Shown: positions 7,428-13,479 of the stretch, one piece after another
How the letters are laid out: the number at the start of each line of letters is the position of its first letter
How positions within the stretch are numbered: the stretch's first letter is position 1
Source: a virus
Direction: 5' to 3' (one strand)
Length of the DNA stretch: 25,233 nucleotides
Virus record (IMG/VR): IMGVR_UViG_3300032086_001335
Location: 1-25,233 of that record
Notes under the pieces: generated by a model
What the model saw: only the letters and a program-made list of their open reading frames with translations
What the model was told of the DNA's origin: nothing
The model's database searches: none
Program-made: the position numbers and the translations under genes

Positions 7428-8026
7428 TGAGAGCCGGAATAATAACAATTCCTAACAGGAATCACTATCTCAATTCGCTCACCGATTGTCTTGAGGTAAA
7501 CGATATAGAATATAAATTATTCATAGACTATCGAAAGCAAGGCGCGTTTTGGAATTATATGCGAATGTTTAAAGAGATGTTAGAAGGTGCGAAAAAAGAT
7601 GAACCGATTCTCTTATGTACAGACGACGTAATCACAACGTATGATTTTAGAATGCGATTTGAAAAACTACACGCTGAGGTAGGCTCAGAACTATACACAT
7701 TCTTTACAAGACAAAGACATCTTCTAAAATATAAAGACGTTGGATATGTTACTAAGGTTCAAAAGCGAGGTTGGTATGATCAAGCTAGTGTATTTATAAA
7801 TCAACAAGACCTGCCTTGTAAAGTAGAAACTTGGTTTGAGACTCACGGTAAATATCTAATGAATGAGAATCGACAAAAGCATCACGATGTAGTAATACAA
7901 GACTATTTCGTAGATAATAACATACCTTGGACTATTACGGTTCCGACATTTTTTGAGCATACCGGAGTAGTATCGAGCTTAGGACACGATGTAGGACAAT
8001 CAATTTTATATATAGGCAACGTATGA
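7427..8026 (+). CDS. GT-A-like glycosyltransferase
   Basis: The 199-residue protein starts with a Rossmann-like strand (AGIITIPNR). It carries ILLCTDDV (61-68), whose paired aspartates fit the metal/nucleotide-sugar DxD site of GT-A enzymes. Later it has TFFTRQRHLLK, QKRGWYDQASVFI and PTFFEHTGVVSSLGH, a pattern I recall from phage glycosyltransferase-like proteins. Possible substrates are modified phage DNA bases or host surface sugars. It sits between a methyltransferase and an IbrA-like protein with 1- and 4-base overlaps, suggesting one functional cassette. The fold call is moderate; the acceptor is unknown. Confidence 0.6.
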   Translation: MRAGIITIPNRNHYLNSLTDCLEVNDIEYKLFIDYRKQGAFWNYMRMFKEMLEGAKKDEPILLCTDDVITTYDFRMRFEKLHAEVGSELYTFFTRQRHLLKYKDVGYVTKVQKRGWYDQASVFINQQDLPCKVETWFETHGKYLMNENRQKHHDVVIQDYFVDNNIPWTITVPTFFEHTGVVSSLGHDVGQSILYIGNV

Positions 8027-9171
8027 AGATTTATAAAAAAACAAACGTATATGAAGAGGCGTTGAATAGAGTACGTTATTTGTACGATGAATTCGATGAG
8101 GTACTAGAAGGTTACTCGGGTGGAAAAGATTCGACAGTAACGCTTAGAATCGCTATTGAGGTGGCTAGAGAGAAAGGTAAGCTACCGGTGAAAGCAATAT
8201 TTATAGATCAAGAGGCTGAGTGGGGCGCAGTTATTGAGCATATGCGAGAAATATATAACGAGGATGAAGTCGATTTAAGATGGTATCAAATACCTTTTAA
8301 GATATATAACGCAACCTCAACCTTAAAGCAATGGATTACGGCTTGGGAGGATGGAGTCGAAACTATGAGACCTAGAGAACCTTATTCTATTCAGAAAAAT
8401 ACATACGGTACTGAGGGGTTTTACGATTTATTCAATAAGATAATTGAGAAAGACTTTCCCGAAAATACAATATTACTCGGTGGGGTAAGAGCCGAAGAAA
8501 GTCCTAGACGTAAAGTGGCGATGACACAAGACGTGACATATAAATACATAACTTGGGGTAAGAAACTAAACCCGAAAAAGAATCAATATACATTTTATCC
8601 CATTTACGATTGGAGCTATACGGATGTTTGGAAAGCGATACACGATAATAAATGGCTATATACAAAGGTTTATGATTACCAATATATGTACGGAGTGCAA
8701 CCGAAGAAGATGAGAGTCTCTAATCTACACCACGAAACCGCAATCGAGACGTTATTTTATTTGCAAGAGATAGAAAAAGACACTTGGTTAGCTTTAACGA
8801 AAAGAATGAGCGGTATAAATACTGCCGGTAAACTAAACAAAGACGATTACTTTGTAAGAGAGTTGCCGTTTATGTTTAGGTCTTGGGAAGAGTATCGAGA
8901 TTATCTAACTGAGCATCTAGTAAAGAATGAATCGCTCAAAGAGAAGTTTAAAAAGAAATGGGAAGTTTACGATGTTCGTTACGCGAAGATGAACCATAGA
9001 GATAAATTAATCAAAGCCGAGATACAAACCATTTTAGCGAATGACATCGATTTAAACAAATTGCGTAACTTTACAGAAACGCCGGAGATGGAAGATTTTA
9101 GAAGATGGGCAAGAGGCGATGAAATTAAATTTACTCGAATAAAAAATAAATACATACCGGATGAAGTTTAA
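8023..9171 (+). CDS. ibrA: IbrA-like PAPS-reductase-family protein (DUF3440 type)
   Basis: The 382-residue protein has the PP-loop EGYSGGKDSTV (29-39), which binds the pyrophosphate of ATP or PAPS, then AIFIDQEAEW. The second conserved block LLGGVRAEESPRRK (151-164) is diagnostic of the PAPS-reductase/adenylyl-PP-loop superfamily. Total length fits the DUF3440/IbrA group rather than the shorter assimilatory CysH. In E. coli, prophage-borne IbrA acts with the ParB-like IbrB to control expression of immunoglobulin-binding eib genes, and the pair recurs in mobile elements. Here too a ParB-domain gene follows directly, overlapping by 11 bases. The chemistry is unproven in the family. Confidence 0.85.
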   Translation: MKIYKKTNVYEEALNRVRYLYDEFDEVLEGYSGGKDSTVTLRIAIEVAREKGKLPVKAIFIDQEAEWGAVIEHMREIYNEDEVDLRWYQIPFKIYNATSTLKQWITAWEDGVETMRPREPYSIQKNTYGTEGFYDLFNKIIEKDFPENTILLGGVRAEESPRRKVAMTQDVTYKYITWGKKLNPKKNQYTFYPIYDWSYTDVWKAIHDNKWLYTKVYDYQYMYGVQPKKMRVSNLHHETAIETLFYLQEIEKDTWLALTKRMSGINTAGKLNKDDYFVRELPFMFRSWEEYRDYLTEHLVKNESLKEKFKKKWEVYDVRYAKMNHRDKLIKAEIQTILANDIDLNKLRNFTETPEMEDFRRWARGDEIKFTRIKNKYIPDEV

Positions 9172-9826: not shown

Positions 9827-10340
9827 GATAAAACCGTATTGGCGTAACGCTAGAAAGAATGAGCGCACAGTAGAAGCTCTAAAGAAATCGATAAGCAAGT
9901 ATGGGTTTAATCAACCATTAGTCCTAGATAAGAAAAATGTAATCGTAACCGGACACGCTCGATATAAAGCTCTAATGCAATTAGGATATGAAGAAGTCGA
10001 GTGCGTAGTCGCTGATTTAAGTGAGCAAAAAGCGAAGGAGTATAGAATCGCAGACAATAAAACACACGAGCTTACAATATGGGATAACGATGACCTAATG
10101 ATCGAGTTGAGAGAAATCGGTAACAATATCGATATGCAAGATTATTTTCAAAATATAAATCTAGAAGCGTGGCTAGATGATAGCGTTGGATTCAATATGA
10201 CAAATACTTCTCAAGAGGAGTTTCAGAAAAAGGAACACCAAATGGAAAACCGATTCAAAGATGAGGTAAGACAAGAGAAGGTAACGCTAACTTGCCCACA
10301 TTGTTTTGAGGAATACGAACTTGATAAAAAAGATATATAA
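9798..10340 (+). CDS. ParB-domain protein with C-terminal zinc-knuckle
   Basis: The 180-residue protein has a ParB N-terminal domain: IKPYWRNARKNERTVEALKKSI, YGFNQPLVLD, VIVTGHARYKAL (48-59) and YRIADNKTHE (82-91). It ends with a short Cys motif CPHC (166-169) that could form half of a zinc ribbon or a dimeric one. In many phages this ParB form is fused to or adjacent to a DNA methylase and lies just before the terminase genes. No methylase domain is present here. Overlaps with IbrB upstream and the small terminase downstream suggest co-translation. Possible roles are DNA modification or delivery of DNA to packaging. Confidence 0.8.
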   Translation: MKIQTKNLSEIKPYWRNARKNERTVEALKKSISKYGFNQPLVLDKKNVIVTGHARYKALMQLGYEEVECVVADLSEQKAKEYRIADNKTHELTIWDNDDLMIELREIGNNIDMQDYFQNINLEAWLDDSVGFNMTNTSQEEFQKKEHQMENRFKDEVRQEKVTLTCPHCFEEYELDKKDI

Positions 10341-10708
10341 TGAGTGACAATAGTGACAATATAAAAAAGGGACTCGAGAAGAAAGATGCGATGATAGAGG
10401 CATTAGAAAATTCTCTAGGTATCGTTTCAGTAGCTTGTCGTAAAGTAGGCATCTCTAGGCAAACGCATTACCGATGGTGTCAAGAGGACGAAGCATATGA
10501 CAGAGCCGCTAAAGAGATTATAGAGGCTACAATCGACTTTGTTGAGTCTAAGCTATTCGAGAATATACAAGACAAAAAAGAAGCGTCAATAATGTTCTAT
10601 TTAAAATCCAAAGCTAAGCATCGCGGATATGTAGAAAGACAAGAGGTGGATATGGGAACTAATAATCACTTCCGAGTCGAAATCATAGATGAAGGAGCTG
10701 AAGAGTAA
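10340..10708 (+). CDS. terS: Terminase small subunit
   Basis: The 122-residue protein has an N-terminal helix-turn-helix: AMIEALENSLGIVSVACRKVGISRQTHYRWCQEDEAY (about 17-53), the pattern of the phBC6A51/Terminase_2-like small subunits. A helical oligomerisation part (VESKLFENIQDKKEASIMFYLKSKAKHRGYVERQEV) follows, then a polar tail. It should recognise the packaging site and recruit the large subunit, whose gene overlaps by 20 bases. Length and position directly before the large terminase support the call. Confidence 0.85.
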   Translation: MSDNSDNIKKGLEKKDAMIEALENSLGIVSVACRKVGISRQTHYRWCQEDEAYDRAAKEIIEATIDFVESKLFENIQDKKEASIMFYLKSKAKHRGYVERQEVDMGTNNHFRVEIIDEGAEE

Positions 10709-11849
10709 TATAATCTTTAGACATTTAGAGCAATCTAAAAAGCGTATTATAATAGAGCAAGGTGGAACGCGCTCGGGCAAAACCTATAACATATTGCTAT
10801 GGATAATATTCGGGTATGCCTTAAAGAACACAAAGAAAACTATTTCGGTTGCTAGAAAAACCTATCCGGCTTTGAGAACCTCAGCAATGCGAGATTTTAT
10901 AGAGATACTTCGCAACTATGAGTTATACGATGAGACAAAGCATAATAAGTCAAGCGCTGAATATCACCTAAACGGAAACCTCATTGAGTTTATATCTTTA
11001 GATCAGCCGACTAAGGTACGTGGACGAAAGCGTGATTTATTATTTATAAACGAAGCTAACGAGCTACATTGGGAGGATTGGCAACAATTAGTATTCAGAA
11101 CTAAGGAGCGCATTATAATAGACTACAACCCCTCCGATGAGTTTCATTGGATATATGAAAAGGTAAAGACTAGAGACGATGCTGATTTCTTTATCACAAC
11201 CTATAAGCATAATCCGTTTCTAGATGAAAACATTAAAAAAGAAATAGAGCGTCTAAGAGATACCGATGAGCAATATTGGAATATATACGGTCTAGGTCAA
11301 GTTGGCGTTGGAAAAAGCCTTATTTTCCGTTCTACGTTAATAGACGATGTTCCTTTAGATGCAGAGTTTCTGAGTTATGGTATGGATTTTGGATACACTA
11401 ACGACCCCACTACCTTGATCGCCGTTTACAAGCGCGACACGAGTTTATATTTTAACGAGTTAATTTATAGAACCGGAATGACAAACAGAGATATTGCGAA
11501 AGAAATGGAGATACTAGGAATAAATAGAAGAGCCGAAATATATGCAGACTCAGCTGAACCGAAGTCAATAGATGAGATTTATCGCTTTGGGTGGAATATA
11601 AAACCGGCAACAAAAGGTCGCGACTCGATTAACATCGGAATAGATATGCTAAAAAGGTATTCGCTATTCGTAACTAAGTCCTCAACGAATACAATAAAAG
11701 AATTTAGAAACTATAAATGGCGAGAGGATAAAAACGGTGTCGTATTAAACACTCCGGTCGATGCTTATAATCATAGCCTTGACGCTTGTAGATACGCTAC
11801 ATACAATAAATTATCACGCCCGAACTATGGAAAATACGCGGTGAGGTAA
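10689..11849 (+). CDS. terL: Terminase large subunit (PBSX/XtmB type)
   Basis: The 386-residue packaging motor has Walker A GGTRSGKT at 25-32 and Walker B LLFINEAN at 117-124, with the catalytic Glu next to it. The RNase-H-like nuclease domain shows GMDFGYTNDPT (D233, D239), EIYADSAEP (D287) and DAYNHSLDACRYA (D358, D365). It cleaves concatemers and pumps DNA into the prohead through the portal. It is followed not by a portal gene but by a structured intergenic stretch and small genes, which is unusual for this family's usual gene order. Confidence 0.95.
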   Translation: MKELKSNIIFRHLEQSKKRIIIEQGGTRSGKTYNILLWIIFGYALKNTKKTISVARKTYPALRTSAMRDFIEILRNYELYDETKHNKSSAEYHLNGNLIEFISLDQPTKVRGRKRDLLFINEANELHWEDWQQLVFRTKERIIIDYNPSDEFHWIYEKVKTRDDADFFITTYKHNPFLDENIKKEIERLRDTDEQYWNIYGLGQVGVGKSLIFRSTLIDDVPLDAEFLSYGMDFGYTNDPTTLIAVYKRDTSLYFNELIYRTGMTNRDIAKEMEILGINRRAEIYADSAEPKSIDEIYRFGWNIKPATKGRDSINIGIDMLKRYSLFVTKSSTNTIKEFRNYKWREDKNGVVLNTPVDAYNHSLDACRYATYNKLSRPNYGKYAVR

Positions 11850-11866: not shown

Positions 11867-11896
11867 TTTGTTAATTAAAAAAATATTATTAACTTG
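11867..11896 (+). promoter_or_regulatory. Bacteroidota-type promoter (TTTG-N19-TAACTTG)
   Basis: TTTG (11867-11870), a 19-base spacer and TAACTTGC (11890-11897) give a reasonable -33/-7 pair. Initiation near 11902 would place the outer stem of the foldable RNA at the very 5' end of the transcript. GTTAAT (11870-11875) and ATTAAC (11888-11893) form an inverted repeat within the promoter that may be an operator. Confidence 0.5.
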
Positions 11897-11903
11897 CGGT
11901 ATA

Positions 11904-12014
11904 ATTAGAACAAAACGCGGGTTTAATATCGTGACCTAATTAAGCTAGAAGTGAAAATAGGAGCGTTTCCCTGACCCGCTGAGTTCTAATAAAAGGTGTA
12001 AAATTCCGGCACCT
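11904..12014 (+). ncRNA. Candidate structured leader RNA, two helical modules
   Basis: ATTAGAAC (11904-11911) pairs perfectly with GTTCTAAT (11983-11990). Inside it GCGGGT (11917-11922) pairs with ACCCGC (11974-11979), extendable by a U-G pair. Further in, CCTA (11935-11938) pairs with TAGG (11958-11961) beneath possible UU/AA pairs. A second hairpin follows: AGGTG (11994-11998) with CACCT (12010-12014). The nested perfect helices, separated by asymmetric internal loops, are far more ordered than the AT-rich background. The region has no T-tract, so it is more likely a 5' leader (riboswitch-like, or a packaging or processing element) than a self-terminating sRNA. It matches no class I could name. 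Confidence 0.5.
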
Positions 12015-12057
12015 ACTCTAGAGACAAATCAAAACGGATATAATTAAAACGACAAGT

Positions 12058-12294
12058 ATGAACTATATTAAAGAAAATGACAAAATCGGAGACCGTATTG
12101 TAAGAGCTACACAATTAGGTAATTGTATTGGCGAGGTTTCTAATCTAACTATGTTTATTGAAAATATTTTGATTCCTAAAGTAGAGAATCGAGATGAAAC
12201 GTATTATGATAGAGCTGATATTTCTAGAGATTTATCAGAGGTGCTAGAAAATCTAAACGAGCTAAAAAATAAAATCGATAAAATAGAATTATAA
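12058..12294 (+). CDS. Small helical protein, unknown
   Basis: The 78-residue, mostly helical, charged protein begins NYIKENDKIGDRIVRATQLG. A C-terminal heptad-like part (DLSEVLENLNELKNKIDKIEL) looks like a coiled coil. It is the first gene after the structured leader and shares one base with the next start. No family is recognised. The position between terminase and tail genes is where a portal might be expected, but the protein is far too small to be one. Confidence 0.65.
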   Translation: MNYIKENDKIGDRIVRATQLGNCIGEVSNLTMFIENILIPKVENRDETYYDRADISRDLSEVLENLNELKNKIDKIEL

Positions 12295-12578
12295 TGGATC
12301 ACGGAATATTTGAAAATTTAGGATGGCATATTGACTACCGTTTAAACGGAAAGTATATCGGGAGTGAATTAGTAAGTGAACCGGATAGATTTAAAACCGG
12401 TTATGAGGGTCGAGTTCAAAGAGAGCTTGAAGAGGATATAATCCTTAGAGGTAAAAGATATAAAAAGGGAACGTTAGTTGTTACCGAATGCGTGCCGTTG
12501 TGCGGTCGAGTAAAAGGTGATAGACTTAAAGTGCTAGAGGATAGTGTAGAGTGGCGTAACCAATTAAATTACTCTTAG
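12294..12578 (+). CDS. Small probably beta-rich protein, unknown
   Basis: The 94-residue protein begins HGIFENLGWHIDYRLNGKYIGSEL and continues with charged strands (VQRELEEDIILRGKRYKKGTLVVTECV). The pattern suggests a small beta barrel or SH3-like fold, but I cannot name a family. It is co-transcribed with the gene at 12058, and a terminator at 12607 closes the unit. Neither gene has a visible link with packaging. Confidence 0.65.
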   Translation: MDHGIFENLGWHIDYRLNGKYIGSELVSEPDRFKTGYEGRVQRELEEDIILRGKRYKKGTLVVTECVPLCGRVKGDRLKVLEDSVEWRNQLNYS

Positions 12579-12606: not shown

Positions 12607-12638
12607 GAGGGGGATGCGAAAGCGTCCCTCTTTTTTTT
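12607..12638 (+). terminator. Rho-independent terminator
   Basis: GAGGGGGATGC (12607-12617), a GAAA-type loop and GCGTCCCTC (12622-12630) form an imperfect stem with strong GAGGG/CCCTC closing pairs, followed by eight Ts. It ends the 12058-12578 unit. The T-tract supplies the -33 TTG of the next possible promoter. Confidence 0.85.
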
Positions 12639-12665
12639 GATAATGAAATATTTTTTTTATCTTAG
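12637..12665 (+). promoter_or_regulatory. Possible promoter TTG-N18-TATCTTAG
   Basis: TTG (12637-12639), 18 bases, then TATCTTAG (12658-12665), one base from TAnnTTTG. It would start a transcript near 12671 that meets a terminator at 12739 before any gene. It could feed the tail operon if the terminator is read through. Confidence 0.4.
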
Positions 12666-12708: not shown

Positions 12709-12723
12709 GTGTAAACTTTACAC
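12709..12723. promoter_or_regulatory. Perfect palindrome GTGTAAACTTTACAC, operator-like
   Basis: Seven-base arms GTGTAAA and TTTACAC surround a single central C. The site lies in the gene-free stretch between two terminators (12579-12813), before the tail operon. Symmetry and size fit a dimeric repressor or activator site; no protein partner can be named. Confidence 0.45.
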
Positions 12724-12738
12724 ACATTTTAACACTAA

Positions 12739-12779
12739 AGAGGGTTTTCTATCGTTGCTGCGGGTCACCCTCTTTTTTT
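12739..12779 (+). terminator. Rho-independent terminator before the tail operon
   Basis: AGAGGGT (12739-12745) pairs with ACCCTCT (12767-12773), followed by a T-tract to 12779. The 21-base loop is unusually long for a simple terminator. No gene ends nearby upstream apart from the already terminated 12578 gene, so it must end a short transcript or act as an attenuator of the tail genes. Confidence 0.75.
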
Positions 12780-12813
12780 ATTCTCAAAAAATTAATATCA
12801 ACGTTATATACAT

Positions 12814-13479
12814 ATGGAAATAAAAGTAAAAGTCCCGAGTAAACTTTCAGAGCTTACACTAGAGCAATATGCTAAGTATTCAGAGATGCTCCAACAATAC
12901 GAAGCGATGAAGGACGAAAAGAAGAACCCCGAGATATTTTATATGCTTAAAACGCTTGAAATATTTTGCGGTATCAATTATGAGGACGGTATGAAAATAC
13001 GAGTACAAGATGTTAAAAAACTTGTGTACTCTATGGAAAAATTACTTTCAGAGAAACCGGATTTAATCCGAACATTTAAAGCCGGTGATACAACGTTTGG
13101 TTTTATACCTCAACTTGACGATATGACCTTCGGCGAGTATATAGACGTTGACACAAACTTAGGGGATTGGAAGAATATGCACAAAGTTATGGCGGTGTTA
13201 TATAGACCGGTTAAAAAACATAGTGGAGATAAATACCTTATAGACGAATATAAGGGAGACCTATATCACGAGGTAATGAGAAAAACGCCTTTAGATGTCG
13301 TATTTAGTTCGCTGATTTTTTTTTATCATTTAGGGATAGACTTGTCGAACGCTATGACGAAATATTTGGAGGAGAAAGCAATGGACTCGGAGCAATCGAA
13401 AACTTTGGACGTAAGTGGGGTTGGTATCAATCGGTCTATTCGCTTGCTAAAGGAGACATTACAAAATATGACGATATAA
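12814..13479 (+). CDS. Tail assembly chaperone, zero-frame product (G-like)
   Basis: The 221-residue soluble protein begins IKVKVPSKLSELTLEQYAKY and contains FGFIPQLDDMTFGEYIDVD (95-113) followed by NMHKVMAVLYRPV (121-133). I recall this pattern from Bacteroidota phage proteins at the start of tail operons. Residues 168-170 (IFF) are encoded by part of a T9 run, where a second product can branch off (see the 12814-13574 entry). After this point the zero frame continues for 51 residues with a plausible helical tail (FYHLGIDLSNAMTKYLEE). By analogy with lambda G/GT it would bind the tape measure protein during tail assembly. Confidence 0.75.
   Translation: MEIKVKVPSKLSELTLEQYAKYSEMLQQYEAMKDEKKNPEIFYMLKTLEIFCGINYEDGMKIRVQDVKKLVYSMEKLLSEKPDLIRTFKAGDTTFGFIPQLDDMTFGEYIDVDTNLGDWKNMHKVMAVLYRPVKKHSGDKYLIDEYKGDLYHEVMRKTPLDVVFSSLIFFYHLGIDLSNAMTKYLEEKAMDSEQSKTLDVSGVGINRSIRLLKETLQNMTI

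Follow-up and report, generated by a model that had tools for sequence, protein, structure and literature searches.

Structured RNA ahead of a coding region is known from several phage and viral systems. The phage T4 gene 32 mRNA carries an H-type pseudoknot upstream of the start codon in its 5′ leader, and riboswitches of the preQ1 and SAM-II types are compact pseudoknots with an A-rich third loop near the start codon; riboswitches for cellular metabolites are usually present in hosts. The put RNA of phage HK022 is a structured RNA that heads a phage transcription unit and needs no conserved phage protein. Phage morons are units with their own promoter and terminator in which small variable genes sit beside structural genes, and in the dicistrovirus intergenic IRES a pseudoknotted viral RNA lies directly upstream of a start codon. 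The phage leader that we describe here resembles each of these in the features just named, the likeness to T4 being one of anatomy only, and that to the IRES an analogy only. It forms a previously unlisted RNA family that appears to work most like a pseudoknotted translational leader.

The hosts of these uncultured phages are probably Bacteroidetes, a group in which, to our knowledge, Shine-Dalgarno pairing is not used. In F. johnsoniae, transcription starts 4-5 nt past the -7 element, and genes have a Kozak-like start signal (PMC6847099). The platform of the F. johnsoniae ribosome has a pocket, formed by bS21, bS18, and bS6, that holds the anti-Shine-Dalgarno tail; of all ribosomal proteins, phages encode bS21 most often (PMC9976891).

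The region between terL and the virion genes

The window, by which we mean the whole stretch of DNA that was analysed, is a linear 25,233-base IMG/VR phage contig with nearly all of its genes on the plus strand. Genes for replication and DNA metabolism lie in its left half, together with two ParB-like nucleases, a PAPS reductase, and the terminase pair; virion genes, including tape-measure-like and maturation-protease-like matches, lie in its right half. The phosphoadenosine phosphosulfate reductase gene (8023-9171) is an auxiliary metabolic gene. The structured RNA region is situated between terL and the first virion genes, and its features are as follows.

10340-10708: terS
10689-11849: terL
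11867-11896, plus strand: Bacteroidetes-type promoter-like pair, TTTG (11867-11870), 19-nt spacer, TAACTTG (11890-11896)
11904-11990, plus strand: variable 5′ domain, type E, with outer and inner stems and apical stems 11930-11932/11963-11965 and 11935-11938/11958-11961
11995-12013, plus strand: helix S1, GGUGU (11995-11999) with GCACC (12009-12013), plus the pair A11994-U12014
12000-12003, plus strand: loop L1, AAAA
12005-12038, plus strand: helix S2, UCCG (12005-12008) with CGGA (12035-12038)
12014-12034, plus strand: conserved loop L3, UACUC-N-AGACAAAUCAAAA
12039-12060, plus strand: A/U-rich unpaired spacer of 19 nt and the ATG (12058-12060)
12058-12294, plus strand: first open reading frame (ORF), 78 aa, no known family
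12294-12578, plus strand: second ORF of the unit, 94 aa, no known family
12607-12640, plus strand: intrinsic terminator closing the unit, 11-bp stem, GAAA loop, T8; fold z -4.7

The TTTG-N19-TAACTTG pair and the two nested stems of an earlier, sequence-only reading of this DNA are all present in the window, the outer 8-bp stem at 11904-11911/11983-11990 and the inner stem at 11917-11923/11973-11979. Among 35 copies of the RNA (see below), a TTG/TTTG - N18-21 - TAnnTT(T/G) pair lies upstream of 30, as judged by a regular expression, with a few of the matches off-register. Given the spacing between -7 element and start in F. johnsoniae (PMC6847099), we predict the 5′ end of the window transcript at ~11902-11903, in agreement with the earlier guess of a position near 11902; transcription would proceed from the promoter-like pair. 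The folding energy of the window region was -34.5 kcal/mol, compared to an average of -24.7 for shuffled sequences (z -2.54; 3 of 200 shuffles were equally stable), which taken alone is only moderate evidence for structure.

Covariation reveals an H-type pseudoknot

We fetched 80 loci encoding TerL relatives and read the sequence 3′ of terL. The 3′ module was first seen there, without a pattern, in several of these relatives as AAAGGTGTAAA-loop-GCACCTACTC-N3/4-GACAAATCAAAA. Two pattern scans of IMG/VR yielded 45 contigs with 35 distinct copies, 34 of which were aligned. The scan pattern fixed S1, UACUC, and GACAAAU but placed no constraint on S2, on any 5′ sequence, or on anything downstream; the tests of S2 and of spacing described below were therefore not built in by the search.

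Four of the five S1 pairs are invariant across the 34 aligned copies, and the fifth is U-G or U-A. The UACUC and GACAAAU elements of L3 are likewise invariant, partly by construction since both belonged to the search pattern. The four pairs of helix S2 were free to vary, and 136 of their 136 cells were paired, 52 of them with changes on both sides. Shuffled controls were 63% paired with 12.4 double changes, and versions slid out of register were at most 57% paired; the covariation score was 1.07 for S2 versus 0.29 for shuffled and ≤0.23 for slid versions. The strand in the hairpin loop and the strand just past CAAAA read UCCG/CGGA in the window, UCUC/GAGA in L005, GGGA/UCCC in L053, GGUC/GACC in L082, AGUG/CACU in L094, GAAA/UUUC in L074, and GAUC/GAUC in L102. 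The hairpin loop thus pairs with a downstream strand, and the covariation shows an H-type pseudoknot.

The sequence-only reading had proposed a structured leader and had held that a lack of compensatory changes in homologues would count against it. Such changes exist (the S2 double changes), and its stems are real. The nested stems on which it dwelt, however, turn out to be the variable part of the RNA, and the conserved module consists of the 3′ hairpin and sequence beyond those stems. That hairpin (11994-12014) is real as well, with 6 bp (11994-11999/12009-12014), but it is not the separate element it was taken for, being helix S1 of the pseudoknot. The sequence-only reading had overlooked the downstream strand at 12035-12038, the conserved loop of 21 nt (12014-12034), and the constant spacing to the ATG at 12058.

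Variable 5′ domains precede the constant pseudoknot

At least six unrelated types of 5′ domain occur between the promoter and AAAA-GGUGU, whereas the pseudoknot is constant. Types A, B, and C have a GAGY-A(3-4)-GGUC element in common, and the second hairpin of type A covaries (CUCU/AGAG, GAUCC/GGAUC, AGUCU/AGACU, GACCU/AGGUC). Type D, an unrelated domain found in L068 and L111, is ~215 nt long and lies upstream of the same pseudoknot; the L068 domain had no Rfam match. Type E comprises the window and L008, and type F comprises L005, L006, and L125. Most copies have an extra covarying hairpin just upstream of the pseudoknot (90% paired), a place taken in the window by the outer stem.

Outside the window, its own domain type was found only in L008 and in a near-identical record (L019/L099). 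L008, a partial homologue, has a double change in the 11935-11938/11958-11961 stem (CCUA/UAGG to CUUA/UAAG), and the 3′ side of its outer stem falls beyond the contig end. Support for the window's 5′ domain, coming from this one partial homologue, is therefore thinner than that for the 3′ part, which the homologues make certain. We also considered a switch in which pairing to ACCUACUC would let the 5′ domain invade S1, and rejected it, as 0 of 26 copies did better than shuffled 5′ domains.

The distance from pseudoknot to start codon is fixed

In 35 of 35 copies, the ATG of an open reading frame lies 28-31 nt past GACAAAU, equivalent to 19-22 nt past S2. In all copies, the RNA reads in the same direction as the genes that follow it and lies between a promoter, which is predicted, and the start codon, as a cis-regulatory leader would. 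The first ORFs belong to 22 families without detectable similarity, among them zinc-ribbon peptides, GP88-like proteins, and peptides of 31-49 aa with a single membrane span. The type and length of the 5′ domain vary from copy to copy but the distance from pseudoknot to AUG does not, and this combination of variable upstream and fixed downstream length is our main ground for suggesting a role in translation. A purine is found at -3 in 32 of 34 starts, which fits the start signal of F. johnsoniae (PMC6847099).

The first ORFs of L082, L097, L102, L104, and L108 are 31-49 aa long with one hydrophobic segment and are recognized as genes by the fixed start distance alone. The spacing can therefore mark small genes of this size that annotation misses.

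The RNA appears virus-restricted and is patchily distributed

A covariance model gave one strong match per record at 77-93 bits, with the next best at 21 (39 records, many of them fragments). No Rfam 15 family scored above its gathering threshold, in keeping with the earlier remark that the RNA belongs to no named class; at E values up to 10, only an unrelated snoRNA model (12.9 bits versus 38) and a lncRNA model appeared. The exact pattern had 0 matches in ~85,000 prokaryote genomes, and the covariance model had no convincing match in 391 Bacteroidia genomes. The sole 36-bit match among the latter (L148) was rejected because it has no second helix and because chance alone would yield such a match. 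Four blastn queries against the INPHARED isolated phages returned nothing meaningful, and we found no report of this RNA in the open-access literature. As a class, the RNA appears to be new and confined to viruses.

Among phages with a TerL at least 88% identical to that of the window, the type E domain (window, L008), the type F domain (L005), and no RNA (L002, L003) all occur; an unrelated domain replaces that of the window in L005 and L125, and in L002 and L003 the domain is missing. Phages with a TerL of just 27-59% identity carry the RNA as well. This mixture suggests that the RNA is probably old and has been exchanged, gained, or lost as a unit. A tie to packaging, which the sequence-only reading had raised, finds no support, as the RNA is missing from relatives with a 91-92% identical terminase. 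Our assignment of the probable hosts draws on the promoter type and on the TerL relatives, which include Flavobacterium phages at 41% and MAGs labelled Bacteroidetes and Chitinophagaceae. Three related phages have minus-strand tRNA-Met (CAT) genes directly 3′ of terL (L075, 5166-5239; L076, 1353-1426; L077, 5268-5341).

The RNA heads a short accessory unit

The unit consists, in order, of the promoter-like pair, the RNA, a few small ORFs (two in the window), and the terminator. The first conserved gene of the virion operon starts in the window at 12814 and has a separate promoter-like motif. With that motif and the terminator at 12607-12640 intervening, the RNA is not the portal or virion-operon leader that its position had first suggested. 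In many other RNA-bearing phages, the small ORFs are likewise followed by a terminator, which often lies 40-60 nt upstream of the first conserved gene of the virion operon.

A conserved ACGTTATA motif (ACGTTATAT, window 12801-12809) comes right after the terminator, 10-20 nt upstream of the start codon of the first gene in the virion operon. Within the window's TerL group it is present in the window and ~45 related loci, in phages with and without the RNA, and it resembles a late-promoter element or start signal of a phage. RNA-less relatives retain the same terminator followed by this motif, indicating that the RNA heads a short accessory unit and that transcription of the virion operon does not need it. 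The order terL - RNA unit - virion operon was seen in ~20 of 27 mapped loci, as far as the contigs reach, and in L130, L137, and L138 the RNA is upstream of other small genes. With a predicted promoter, a terminator (which the scan found in not every RNA-bearing record), accessory genes, and patchy occurrence, the unit is moron-like.

Between the unit terminator and the virion operon, the window also has a palindrome, TGTAAACTTTACA (12709-12723), and a second hairpin with a T-run (12737-12779), possibly an operator and an attenuator. A different structured leader of ~140 nt, GAGTAGGCA...GTAAGACCGAAA...CCAATCCCT...AGGGTTGG, was seen 3′ of terL in L037 and L039 (also L149 and L150), 17-19 nt before an ATG. 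We do not claim a distant pseudoknot in L037/L039, since only two contigs hold the leader and the same pairs allow a plain 9-bp hairpin.

Nature also provides versions of the unit without the RNA. L058, which has it, and L064 and L065, which do not, share the promoter ...TAACTTTA and a zinc-ribbon gene family. The ATG of L064 and L065 is four bases past the -7 element, and with the F. johnsoniae spacing of 4-5 nt (PMC6847099) their mRNA is predicted to be leaderless. The same prediction holds 3′ of terL for L064, L065, L070, and L078 together, in which the ATG follows the TAACTTTA -7 element by 3-4 bases. L002 (without the RNA) and L005 (with it) have ...TCTTGCGGTATAATTAAT and TTAAAACTATTGATATG in common, and homologues of the window's first ORF are found in L125, which has the RNA, and in L002 and L003, which do not.

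Discussion

On balance we lean, by a narrow measure, toward the region being a phage-specific cis-acting 5′ leader that controls translation of the first gene, a function suggested by the fixed spacing. Counting in favor of translation control are the S2 covariation, the fixed ATG distance across 22 families in the face of changing 5′ domains, the purine at -3, the occurrence of one promoter and gene family both with and without the RNA, the constant coding strand, and the probable hosts. Counting against it, each phage record has one copy, where a general ribosome recruiter might occupy several genes; relatives with the same gene families do without the RNA; and the fixed spacing may partly reflect inheritance of leader and start region as one block.

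We envision that a host-type promoter starts a short transcript near 11902, which would fold into a variable 5′-terminal helical domain and the constant H-type pseudoknot, followed by ~20 unpaired A/U-rich nt and then the AUG of the first small gene. With the AUG in the P site of a 30S subunit, a position 19-22 nt upstream is about where the mRNA exits. The pseudoknot may therefore act on initiation at the 30S mRNA exit, where it could either dock on the platform of the subunit or offer a host factor or ligand a site, and in hosts that probably lack Shine-Dalgarno pairing such a folded leader would be an alternative way to set initiation. We saw no pairing that would sequester the start site or run antisense to it, so the simpler guess is that the leader raises translation rather than gates it. 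The 5′-terminal helix probably also shields the 5′ end of the mRNA. Considering the platform pocket that holds the anti-Shine-Dalgarno tail and the frequency of phage-encoded bS21 (PMC9976891), a phage RNA acting at the bS21/bS18/bS6 pocket is plausible, and we offer this as a suggestion only.

Two alternatives share much of this anatomy, and we regard each as unlikely, to the same degree. A phage or host protein could bind the pseudoknot and repress or activate the first gene, as T4 gp32 does on its own mRNA; a pseudoknot upstream of the start codon and a single site per genome would suit such a translational operator. Autoregulation by the first ORF is out, however, because that ORF is not conserved, and an autogenous operator of the gp32 type was rejected given 22 first-ORF families and no common phage protein. 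More broadly, no phage protein family was common to RNA-bearing genomes and missing from RNA-less ones at BLAST sensitivity (the best was present in 7 of 15 versus 0 of 10), which points to a host component, perhaps as the binding protein, or to an RNA acting alone. The other alternative is a riboswitch, in which the pseudoknot and conserved A-rich loop bind a small molecule and gate the first gene's translation. An invariant S1 and L3 beside a freely varying S2 resemble the ligand pocket of an H-type pseudoknot, and the location just upstream of the start codon is apt, but the 22 unrelated first-gene families have no metabolic theme, and the prokaryote and Bacteroidia genome searches and Rfam gave no convincing match. 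Ligand sensing is possible, with gene context and phylogenetic range arguing against a common cellular metabolite.

Slightly less probable still is an mRNA-stability element, in which a 5′-terminal helix and pseudoknot block 5′-end-dependent decay without affecting translation. The structure does begin 1-2 nt from the predicted transcript start, and the 5′ domains are unrelated in sequence yet structured. This explanation leaves the fixed distance between pseudoknot and AUG and the invariant loop unaccounted for, as a plain hairpin would suffice.

Processive antitermination of the HK022 put kind, in which the RNA would bind RNA polymerase and suppress terminators further along, with readthrough into the virion operon, seems very improbable: a single copy does head a unit closed by a strong terminator shortly before that operon, but the RNA-less relatives have the same terminator and ACGTTATA motif, and it is the spacing to the AUG, not to the promoter, that stays constant. 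Least credible of all is that the RNA itself is the product, such as a trans-acting decoy or inhibitor against host defence with an incidental ORF; its patchy presence and domain exchange among close relatives would fit, but every copy has a start codon at a fixed distance.

What replaces Shine-Dalgarno pairing in Bacteroidetes initiation is an open question, for which the RNA module and its natural RNA-less versions are a ready probe, and the pseudoknot leader may prove a useful expression part. More speculatively, and at odds that we would put low, the leader could be a bacterial counterpart of the IRES, an RNA found only in viruses whose pseudoknot, kept at a set distance from the AUG, recruits the 30S subunit or positions it. 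It would have evolved in phages of non-Shine-Dalgarno hosts and been exchanged as a cassette before unrelated genes.

Set against the dicistrovirus intergenic IRES itself, no relation is claimed, and the leader would bind ribosomes only by inference. Unlike the pseudoknot of T4 gene 32 mRNA, the one described here precedes a gene that changes between phages and is not the autoregulatory site of one protein. It differs from the preQ1 and SAM-II type riboswitches in being without an Rfam match, phage-only, and placed before unrelated genes, and from HK022 put RNA in its constant spacing to the AUG and in the terminator that RNA-less relatives keep. Phage morons are close in layout, the unit here having its own promoter-like sequence and terminator; we know of no moron for which a conserved structured leader RNA has been described, and it is such a leader that heads this unit.
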